A DNA stretch of 64,000 nt from Woeseiaceae bacterium (GTDB taxonomy: Bacteria > Pseudomonadota > Gammaproteobacteria > Steroidobacterales > Woeseiaceae). The DNA is taken from contig JABDQH010000116.1 in assembly GCA_013042375.1 (NCBI GenBank), forward strand, positions 1 to 64,000. The letters are read 5' to 3'. A model generated the notes under the pieces. That model was not told where the DNA came from and ran no database searches. It saw only the letters and a program-made list of their open reading frames with translations. Made by a program: the position numbers and the translations under genes. Positions 5,595-11,387 of this stretch are shown here, piece by piece (the first letter of the stretch is position 1; each line of letters opens with the position of its first letter).

Positions 5595-5610
5595 ACCCGG
5601 CTCCCGGGTT
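5594..5610. terminator. candidate bidirectional hairpin between convergent genes
   Basis: AACCCGG-CTC-CCGGGTT, perfect 7-bp arms spanning the convergent stop codons. U-tract is weak. Confidence 0.4.
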
Positions 5611-6793
5611 AACTGCGGACCAGGTCCTCGAGCGGCGGCGCCGCGGCGCTGTTGGGGAACACCGTGCGGTCGATGAAGCCCGCCGACAGGCCGAGGTGCT
5701 GTTCGAGCAGGCCCTTGAAGAGGCTGCGAACGTCGGTCGTCGGCCGCAGGTCCCTTGCTTCGTAGAGGTCGGCATTGCCGAGCCCGGGCCAGTCCGAGAT
5801 GATCCTGCCGCCGTTGACGGCGCCGCCGACGAGCACGGCCGCGGTACCCGTGCCGTGGTCCGTACCGCGGGTGCCGTTCACCCGCACGGTACGGCCGAAT
5901 TCCGTGACGATGGCAACCACCGTATCGGACCAGGCATCGCCAAGACCGTCGCGCAGCTTGTCGAGACCGCGGTCGAGTGCGGCAAAGCGATTCGCGAGGG
6001 CACCGTTCGTCGTTCCCTGGTTCGCGTGTGTGTCCCAGCCGCCGAGTTCGACGACGGCGATACGCGGCCCGTCGGGGGCAACAAGAAAGCGTGCTGCCGA
6101 CGTCATGAGTTCACCGAACTGTTGCGCCTCGTTGCCTCTGCGCCCGCTCATGCTGTCCATGCCCGTGGCGATGTCCTGCGACCTGAGCGCCTGGCTCAGG
6201 CGCGTCGCAAAAAACTCGTCGCCGGCATACAGGCGTTGCAGGCGTCCGAGCGTGCTGTCGTCGGCATCCGGCAATCTCGACGGCGCCCAGCTCGTGGTCG
6301 AATTGTCGCCACGCAGCACGAGCGGCGTGTTCTGTGCGAGCGCAATCGCGATTTCGCTGCTGCCCGAGAGAGGGGCAAGCGCACGGTTGAGCCAACCGTC
6401 GCGCAGGCGACCGACGGAGGTCCCGCCGCTTTCGAGCACATCCTGTCCGTCGAAATGCGAACGCTCACGGTACGGGCTTGCGACGGCGTGGACGACGATA
6501 GCCTCATCGTCCCTGAAGCGCGCGTGCACGCCGGGCAACCCGGGGTGCAGGCCGAACAGGCCGTCCAGCTTGAGCAAGTCAGACCTCTGCAGCGCAAGTT
6601 CGCCACGCAAGTTGCGGTAGTTACCGTCGCCATAAGGCGCGGCCAGCGCGAGGCCGTCGACGGCACCGCGCAGTACGACGAGTACAAGACGCGCTTCGCT
6701 GGTGCCGCCGGCAAGGGCCAGGCCTGGCAGCGAGTTCGCGGCGGCGGTCAGCCCGAGCGCCTGCAGGAGCTTTCTGCGGGTCAGCATTTTCAT
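5609..6793 (-). CDS. DUF1501 domain-containing secreted protein
   Basis: Start MKMLTRRKLLQALGLTAAANSLPGLALAGG (Tat-like signal). LVVLRGAVDGLALAAPYGD, VVELGGWDTHANQG and VATEFGRTVRVNGTRGTDHGTG are DUF1501-like. Confidence 0.85.
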   Translation of the reverse strand: MKMLTRRKLLQALGLTAAANSLPGLALAGGTSEARLVLVVLRGAVDGLALAAPYGDGNYRNLRGELALQRSDLLKLDGLFGLHPGLPGVHARFRDDEAIVVHAVASPYRERSHFDGQDVLESGGTSVGRLRDGWLNRALAPLSGSSEIAIALAQNTPLVLRGDNSTTSWAPSRLPDADDSTLGRLQRLYAGDEFFATRLSQALRSQDIATGMDSMSGRRGNEAQQFGELMTSAARFLVAPDGPRIAVVELGGWDTHANQGTTNGALANRFAALDRGLDKLRDGLGDAWSDTVVAIVTEFGRTVRVNGTRGTDHGTGTAAVLVGGAVNGGRIISDWPGLGNADLYEARDLRPTTDVRSLFKGLLEQHLGLSAGFIDRTVFPNSAAAPPLEDLVRS

Positions 6794-8175
6794 CTCCTCT
6801 GAAAATCCGGCGACGCCAGCAACAGCGTCATGCCCTGGATGCGGCTCTCCGCCCGTGAAATCGCCCGGCGCGTGTCGGGGTCGAAACGCGTCCCGAGGAC
6901 CGCAGCGCCGAGCTCGACCGGGTCGACGCCCGAGCCGATGAGGCGCGCGGCCTGGTTGGAAAACTCGATGCGCTTGTAGAGTGCGTCGGCGCCTCCCCAT
7001 TGCTCGGCCGTATCGGGCCAGCCTGCGGGCGAGCCCGGTCGGAACGGCGTCTGTCCGAGGAGGTCGAGGGCGCCGACAATGAACTGCGGCCTCTCCGGCA
7101 CATGATTGAAGGCGCGCAGGGTCGAAACGACAAAATCGTGCGGCGACTTGTACTTGCGTTGTCCGTCATCCCAGGCCTCGTCCGAGGTCAGCATCGCCTC
7201 GTAGACGGTGGGCAGATCGCCGCCGCTCTCGAGCCAGGCACGGGCCATCTCGTCGACGAGCCCCGGGGGCGGGTCGTCGGCGACGAAATGACGCGCCAGC
7301 TTGGTCGAGACGAAGCGCGCCGTCGATGCGTGCGTCGCCAGGTCGCGCAACACCGCCTCGCCCTGCGCCACGCCGGCCTGGGCGTAGCGCCTGCCGAGTA
7401 GCTGCCTGGCGCCGGGCTCGTGAATCGCTTCGCGAAACTCGAACCTGCCCGGCTCGCCATCGGCGAAGCGCCCGCGGTCACCTGCGCCGCCGATCGACCA
7501 GCCCGTGATCACCTGGGCAAAGGTCGTCACGTCGCGCTGCGTGTAGCCGCCGTCGACGCCGAGCGTATGCAGTTCGAGGATCTCGCGAGCGAGGTTTTCG
7601 TTGAGGCCGACCTGCTGGTCGGGGCGCCGTCGCCCGGCGCGTTTCCCGAGCGGCGAGTTCGGCCCGATCGAGCGCTGGTTGTCGAGATAGATGATCATCG
7701 CCGCGTGCTTCTCGACGGCGAGGAGCAGGTCCGCAAACCTGCCGCCGACGTGCGGACGGATAGCCTCGTTCTCCATGAGGCCGGCGATGGCCGGCAACGG
7801 CTGTTTGTCGGCCGATACCGCGAAATGATTGCTCCAGAAATGCACGAGGCGATCGTGAAAAGGCCCGTCGGTTTCGACCGCGTGCCGGTATCGTGCCGCC
7901 GTCTGTGCGACGTAGTTGCGGCGGGCCCAGCGGCCGTATTTCCTGACGACGTCTTCATCATTGCGCTTCGCCTCACGTTGCTCGCGGCGCAGGTCGCGTG
8001 CTTCGGTCAGCACGCGTGCAGAGTCGGGCAGGTCGCGAAACACGGCGGGCTCCCGCGCCGGTCCCTGCAACTGGTCGAGCAGCCAGGCCGCGGGGCGCTG
8101 CACGCGGTCGAGTTCGCCCGGCCGGGCACCGAGCCCGAAGCGGTTGACGGCGATGACGATCTTCGATGCGTTCAC
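6790..8175 (-). CDS. DUF1800 domain-containing protein
   Basis: 461 aa. NRFGLGARPGELD, FWSNHFAVSADK, NENLAREILELHTLGVDGGYTQRDV. Overlaps the DUF1501 start (usual genomic partner). Confidence 0.88.
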   Translation of the reverse strand: MNASKIVIAVNRFGLGARPGELDRVQRPAAWLLDQLQGPAREPAVFRDLPDSARVLTEARDLRREQREAKRNDEDVVRKYGRWARRNYVAQTAARYRHAVETDGPFHDRLVHFWSNHFAVSADKQPLPAIAGLMENEAIRPHVGGRFADLLLAVEKHAAMIIYLDNQRSIGPNSPLGKRAGRRRPDQQVGLNENLAREILELHTLGVDGGYTQRDVTTFAQVITGWSIGGAGDRGRFADGEPGRFEFREAIHEPGARQLLGRRYAQAGVAQGEAVLRDLATHASTARFVSTKLARHFVADDPPPGLVDEMARAWLESGGDLPTVYEAMLTSDEAWDDGQRKYKSPHDFVVSTLRAFNHVPERPQFIVGALDLLGQTPFRPGSPAGWPDTAEQWGGADALYKRIEFSNQAARLIGSGVDPVELGAAVLGTRFDPDTRRAISRAESRIQGMTLLLASPDFQRR

Positions 8176-11153: not shown

Positions 11154-11189
11154 GCAAAGAAAGCCGCCCAAGGGCGGCACTCGCAAATA

Positions 11190-11214
11190 AGAAAGCCGCC
11201 CGAGGGCGGCTTTC
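11190..11214. terminator. strong intrinsic terminator hairpin, best oriented for the minus strand
   Basis: GGAAAGCCGCCCTCGGGCGGCTTTCTTATTT on the minus strand: GC-rich stem followed by a U-rich tail. A related GCCGCCCAAGGGCGGC hairpin lies at about 11162-11177. Confidence 0.75.
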
Positions 11215-11244
11215 CGTGGAACGGTTCAGTATCGAAAACTCAGG

Positions 11245-11325
11245 TCAGCGAAGTGAGTCGTGGTGCTCCATCTTTCGCGTCGAAGCCTTAAGGTTTTCAG
11301 ATACCCCAGTTATCCCACGAGACAT
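11245..11325 (-). CDS. unannotated 26-aa small protein candidate MSRGITGVSENLKASTRKMEHHDSLR
   Basis: ATG..TGA of 27 codons, immediately preceded by AAAGGAGGTGATCC (13 nt identical to the perfect anti-SD complement). Promoter-like TTGGAA-N17-CATACT at 11387-11359 and a terminator downstream. Confidence 0.6.
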   Translation of the reverse strand: MSRGITGVSENLKASTRKMEHHDSLR

Positions 11326-11358
11326 GGATCACCTCCTTTCGTTTGTTAGCCCGCGTTG

Positions 11359-11387
11359 AGTATGTCTTTGAAATCAAGGAATTCCAA
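11359..11387 (-). promoter_or_regulatory. sigma70-like promoter for the 26-aa ORF
   Basis: Minus strand: TTGGAA (11387-11382), 17-nt spacer, CATACT (11364-11359). Confidence 0.45.

Follow-up and report, generated by a model that had tools for sequence, protein, structure and literature searches.

Introduction

Small genes of the kind described here are already known from Alphaproteobacteria. The genes rreB and rreR ('ribosome-regulated expression'; Hahn et al. 2017, RNA Biol 14:1353, doi 10.1080/15476286.2016.1256534) reportedly produce a small mRNA that is bound to 30S subunits, and its translation is said to be weak, impeded by a long Shine-Dalgarno sequence (SD) and a GTG start. Destroying the start codon reportedly stabilises the RNA, and rre genes are said to have been listed for alphaproteobacterial orders only. 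The encoded peptides are unstructured, namely SP-1 of Bradyrhizobium japonicum (14 aa, 1.6 kDa) and SP-3 of Dinoroseobacter shibae (18 aa) (PMC7217052). In Flavobacteriales the rpsU message, which encodes bS21, carries an extended SD and senses ribosomes that lack bS21; Flavobacterium rpsU is the nearest experimentally worked extended-SD ribosome sensor (PMC9976891).

Results

Layout of the cassette

The cassette lies on the minus strand of the window (the whole 64,000-nucleotide stretch of Woeseiaceae DNA that was analysed) between positions 11387 and 11185, and comprises the following parts.

11382 to 11387, minus strand: -35 element TTGGAA, from the sequence; a CTTGGAA-like -35 also occurs in genus relatives
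11359 to 11364, minus strand: -10 element CATACT after a 17-nt spacer; CATACT/GATACT in 55/56 Woeseiaceae-type copies
11351 to 11358, minus strand: G+C-rich discriminator CAACGCGG; mean GC 74% there vs 41-43% in the flanks (56 copies)
11326 to 11340, minus strand: extended SD GAAAGGAGGTGATCC, abutting the start codon, complement of the 16S 3' tail; core invariant in 30 aligned copies
11245 to 11325, minus strand: ORF of 26 codons plus stop, MSRGITGVSENLKASTRKMEHHDSLR (ATG 11325-11323, TGA 11247-11245)
11312 to 11320, minus strand: 5' strand of helix P1, TCGTGGGAT, codons 2-5; partner 11222-11214; covariation
11214 to 11222, minus strand: 3' strand of helix P1, GTTCCACGG, adjoining the terminator; covariation
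11185 to 11214, minus strand: intrinsic terminator GAAAGCCGCCC-TC-GGGCGGCTTTC with TTATTT, from the sequence; helix covaries in relatives
11193 to 11348, minus strand: match to RF01867 (CC2171), 44.5 bits, cut-off 75

An earlier note had described the locus as a complete unannotated small gene, and this description held, since promoter, SD, frame and terminator were all present and conserved in relatives. The promoter-like pair TTGGAA-N17-CATACT reads as claimed, the 26-aa peptide had been written out exactly, and the GC-rich hairpin with a T-rich tail that was placed behind the ORF was located at 11214-11191, followed by TTATTT. Judged by its sequence, the cassette is a genuine small gene that stands alone and is conserved.

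Beyond the first hairpin, a second terminator-like one was found at 11178-11163; it faces the end of a gene for a class V aminotransferase, which is convergent with the cassette. The region 11163-11214, between the element and that gene, is occupied by a tandem pair of GC-rich hairpins with T-rich tails (GCCGCCC..GGGCGGC); similar repeated hairpins were seen 3' of several relatives (L003, L004 and L114). Elsewhere in the window, two large ORFs, one of 463 aa and one of 461 aa, lie side by side and overlap at 5609-8175 on the minus strand, presumably an ordinary pair resembling DUF1501/DUF1800 genes.

Relatives and distribution

No family had been recognised for the cassette, which proved to be related to rreB/rreR and to Rfam CC2171. 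In a permissive Rfam search, RF01867 matched the site over its whole length with 44.5 bits (E 1.8e-8), and the same model gave 79.5-98.7 bits in five MSH-type alphaproteobacterial loci, which pass the cut-off, 44.5 in 14-aa and 37.7 in 18-aa loci, the sub-threshold scores being owed in part to the shared SD itself. The cassette is described as a relative of CC2171 and not as a member, because 44.5 bits lies below the cut-off of 75. The closing helix of the CC2171 type, in which codons 3-5 pair with the stretch beside the terminator, is present in the window cassette.

Within Woeseiaceae, the element was found in 30/37 genus genomes by DNA search and in two more by covariance model, giving 32/37. 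Promoter, SD, ATG, the 26-codon frame, P1 and terminator are common to the window copy and 30 genus copies. The pattern AGGAGGTGATYCAN{0,3}TGTC matched 34/349 genomes of a phylum sample, with 0 matches for a reversed control pattern, and a near-identical pattern matched 20/190 genomes of an alphaproteobacterial class sample (class inferred from gene sets); both counts are lower bounds because the pattern is exact. Three class matches (L032, L034 and L037) were set aside, as they lay inside coding genes and looked like chance. A scan of named genomes gave matches in Woeseiaceae, MAGs of other Gammaproteobacteria, Pelagibacterium, Agrobacterium, Rhizobium, Henriciella, Neomegalonema and others. 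Copies were also seen on MAG contigs with odd taxon titles, namely L078 and L117 (Klebsiella pneumoniae), L097 (Rheinheimera), L102 (Gemmatimonadales) and L076 (Deltaproteobacteria); these titles are probably binning or naming errors.

Among 321 gammaproteobacterial genomes, only four exceeded 100 bits with model R1, two of the window's genus and two of one other genus. No other match exceeded about 30 bits; such low-scoring matches, seen in 49 of the gammaproteobacterial genomes, were rejected as short or terminator-like, and a clear gap separates them from the true matches. In the window's order, diverged copies scoring 60-82 bits were found in three more families, each with an SD, ATG-TC and a short ORF. 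On these searches the element appears rare in Gammaproteobacteria and wide in Alphaproteobacteria.

The alphaproteobacterial copies have in common an SD, [AG]TG TC, a short ORF and a terminator. The ORF sets were MSHCHQP.. (GTG start), a 14-aa form MS[YF]TKRCHLAGIAR in large genomes, an 18-aa form MSR.. and MSSE.. of 23-31 aa. Where the ORF has 14 or 18 aa and its SD measures 17 nt, we take the gene to be rreB or rreR, respectively. The 14-aa form MSYTKRCHLAGIAR, from genomes of about 7-9 Mb, has a mass of 1.607 kDa, in agreement with the 1.6-kDa SP-1, and from this mass and the large genomes we infer that these loci belong to Bradyrhizobium; the 18-aa form has the length of SP-3 of Dinoroseobacter.

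Shine-Dalgarno sequence and 16S tail

The 13-nt complement of the 16S tail that the earlier note had placed directly before the ATG, AAGGAGGTGATCC, is exact and was the sole match in the window even with up to two mismatches allowed. With the A of the ATG, GAAAGGAGGTGATCC gives 13 nt of certain complement, and up to 16 nt if the organism's 16S rRNA ends in ..UGGAUCACCUCCUUUC. The 16S 3' end of the window's genome was looked for, with no match in 14 genomes and the sequence probably missing or withheld, so the full complement length rests on the near-universal GGATCACCTCC tail. Predicted pairing of the SD site with GGAUCACCUCCUUUC amounted to -27.1 kcal/mol vs a best value of -13.7 and a median of -6.7 kcal/mol at the candidate starts of 167 ORFs of at least 150 aa, in line with the claim of an SD far stronger than is typical.

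Since the SD and the 16S end are exact reverse complements, the SD could also stem from an antisense 16S rRNA fragment, or the ORF could stand by chance next to an unrelated terminator. No flanking rRNA sequence was present, however, and Rfam at gathering threshold gave no match over the window, rRNA included; conservation of the whole cassette already refutes this explanation, to which practically no weight was given.

The SD of the window copy lies outside P1 in the MFE model, at most in a weak local hairpin. Masking of the SD by a 3'UTR anti-SD, CCTCCTTT, was considered as a general feature and rejected: at least 6 nt of it were found in 21/57 Woeseiaceae-type copies, it is absent from the window copy, and the MSH, 14-aa and 18-aa groups were without enrichment. 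Several 18-aa copies (L062-L067) have a 3'UTR with CCCACCTCC..CTTTC, like the 16S tail itself, and CCTCCTTTT directly follows the stop codon in some Woeseiaceae-type copies; in those lineages only, these stretches could act as an internal anti-SD.

Reading frame and peptide

Conservation of the reading frame in relatives, whose absence would have refuted the gene, was found: the ORF was open in all of the first 30 genus copies, with 26 codons in 29 and 31 in one, which has gained 15 nt in frame. The remaining two frames were almost always closed. In 57 distinct Woeseiaceae-type copies the ORF had 26 codons in 56, and the length of the 3'UTR drifts, the distance from the stop codon to the P1 3' strand taking nine values. 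With one representative per family, an ORF of 14-31 codons was present in 29/29 families vs 8.1/29 in dinucleotide shuffles (joint probability 3e-17), the codon bounds having been fixed after the data were seen. Values of pN/pS were 0.75 for codons 6-26, 0.64 for codons 6-22 and 1.1 for the last four. Shifted frames gave 0.66 and 0.95, and RNA structure constrains part of the ORF as well. Selection was borne out for frame and length, whereas constraint on the amino acids appears weak (0.75 vs 0.66 in a shifted frame). Taken together, the comparisons indicate a reading frame under selection, in which frame and length are kept and the amino-acid sequence appears nearly free.

The motif GGAGCARCCTYC near the ORF end, which codes for EQPS, is conserved in many alpha- and gammaproteobacterial copies (e.g. 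L044, L053, L071 and L113). In MFE models it forms a small stem-loop whose loop reads CAGC/CAAC; the window copy is without a perfect stem.

These data bear on a functional micro-protein gene, in which the strong SD would serve high-level translation of a 26-aa trans-acting peptide. The open frame with 26 codons in 56/57 copies, the C-terminal (M)EQPS/MEHPS motif recurring in many lineages and the mild constraint at codons 6-22 would fit such a gene, but the overall pN/pS and the value at the C-terminus exceed that of a shifted frame, peptides of different families cannot be aligned past MSS/MSH, the known rreB/rreR peptides are unstructured, and the EQPS motif may be explained by the RNA, because GGAGCARCCTYC folds as a hairpin in many copies. 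A Pfam search with the 26-aa peptide gave no match. We consider this explanation unlikely. The earlier suggestion of a highly translated micro-protein is not supported: the peptide appears only weakly constrained, and in rreB the over-long SD is said to impede translation and not to boost it. The mild constraint at codons 6-22 (pN/pS 0.64) would leave room for some role of the peptide.

RNA structure

P1 is formed by codons 3-5 together with the bases adjoining the terminator. Since the pattern fixes the 5' strand, the pattern-selected set is biased for P1 testing, and the P1 score was determined on 59 copies chosen without selecting for P1 codons. The mean helix score was 6.17 vs 4.75 ± 0.13 with swapped 3' parts and 4.92 ± 0.13 with a shuffled 5' segment, and 0/200 shuffles reached the observed value with either control. 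In alignment A1, 96% of the cells of P1 and the terminator were paired and 41 cells were double-changed; 0/500 shuffles were as high, and slid registers never exceeded 56% paired. Versions of P1 across families included GTGAGAT/ATCTCAC, CATTGTC/GACAATG, CACCAAA/TTTGGTG, CATAGTT/GACTATG and CATGAAT/ATTCATG, and some 18-aa copies have GAAAG/CTTTC near the terminator. In 19/26 family representatives, hence not in all, P1 measures at least 5 bp and directly adjoins the terminator. In the window copy, P1 is formed in the MFE model.

Strong structure with covariation, the stand-alone locus and the filing of relatives as sRNA in Rfam would also suit a base-pairing regulatory sRNA with an incidental short ORF, which would act on other mRNAs or, as a sponge lowering SD-dependent initiation, on the 16S tail. 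A pure sRNA would need neither start codon, frame nor stop position, yet all three are kept in every sampled family, and among single-stranded stretches it is the SD, and not a target-specific seed, that is most conserved. This explanation was judged improbable, somewhat more so than a micro-protein.

Promoter and independence of the locus

A consensus promoter scanner made no call at TTGGAA-N17-CATACT. The recurrence of TTGGAA..[CG]ATACT in relatives is nevertheless better evidence for the putative promoter than the scanner. Promoters subject to stringent or growth-rate control typically carry a G+C-rich discriminator, and the one found here suggests such control of synthesis, as a hint and not as proof.

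Neighbouring genes were conserved inside the genus only and none was shared beyond it, which argues for an independent RNA and not a leader. A cis-acting leader or attenuator was accordingly rejected, the downstream aminotransferase gene being convergent and the neighbourhood kept only within the genus. With its own conserved promoter and terminator, the element would, judged at sequence level, be an independent short transcript with a length of probably about 170 nt.

Discussion

We interpret the cassette, with a probability of roughly 0.7, as an rre-type small structured mRNA that would bind 30S subunits via its over-long SD and be poorly translated, its translation setting the fate of the RNA. 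The conserved promoter would give a transcript with a short leader holding the 16S-tail complement up to the start codon. P1 pairing puts the ORF inside one long closed structure and leaves the SD outside, where it would strongly capture free 30S subunits. The over-long duplex without a spacer, with P1 just downstream, would slow both start-codon entry and elongation. The RNA would then sit on 30S subunits, with successful translation opening P1 and deciding the stability and amount of the RNA, which would in this way sense or buffer those 30S subunits that are competent for initiation. This sensor or buffer role is the weakest step of the rre-type interpretation. The element probably acts via its grip on the ribosome rather than via the peptide, which would be a by-product, at most of secondary importance.

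Few encodable contacts between mRNA and ribosome are stronger than a perfect match of 13-16 nt with the 16S tail. That so strong an SD is kept before a nearly free ORF sequence in two bacterial classes suggests that selection acts on initiation itself rather than on the product. More tentatively, and at somewhat less than even odds, rreB, rreR, CC2171 and the window's clade may form one ancient RNA family of Alpha- and Gammaproteobacteria that acts as a 30S sensor or buffer. In it, SD and P1 would form a built-in trap for initiation, the read-out would be whether a disposable ORF is translated, and the peptide sequence would be irrelevant.

As far as could be checked, the gammaproteobacterial clade with its fixed 26-codon frame and zero-spacer ATG is new, as are the link of the rre genes to Rfam CC2171, the covariation of P1 across lineages and the evidence of a selected reading frame in the CC2171 'sRNA' family. 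This indicates that the members of that family are translated small mRNAs and ties them to the rre genes, on which few studies exist; the cassette also offers a testable RNA architecture of SD, P1 and terminator.

Comparison with known systems

Like rpsU of Flavobacteriales, the cassette has an exceptionally strong SD that would serve to sense the state of the ribosome; unlike bS21, the window peptide is tiny and without likeness to a ribosomal protein. With Caulobacter sRNA CC2171 (RF01867) it shares a similar length, the start AACAA..GAAAGGAGGTGATCCA..TGTCTC, a P1-like closing helix and the terminator. The P1 of CC2171 is CATTGTC/GACAATG, whereas that of the window cassette is GTGGGAT/GTTCCAC, and Rfam treats CC2171 as non-coding, whereas all loci of this analysis carry a conserved ORF. 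The likeness to rreB (Bradyrhizobiaceae, 14 aa) and rreR (Rhodobacter/Roseobacter, 18 aa) extends to a putative stand-alone small mRNA, an extended SD presumably matching the whole 16S tail and a tiny ORF right behind it, and it is to this comparison that the short unstructured peptide belongs. The window cassette differs from both in being gammaproteobacterial (Woeseiaceae), in its 26 codons and GTGRGAT-type P1, and in its zero-spacer ATG (GATCC-ATG) where rreB and rreR have GATCCA-GTG.
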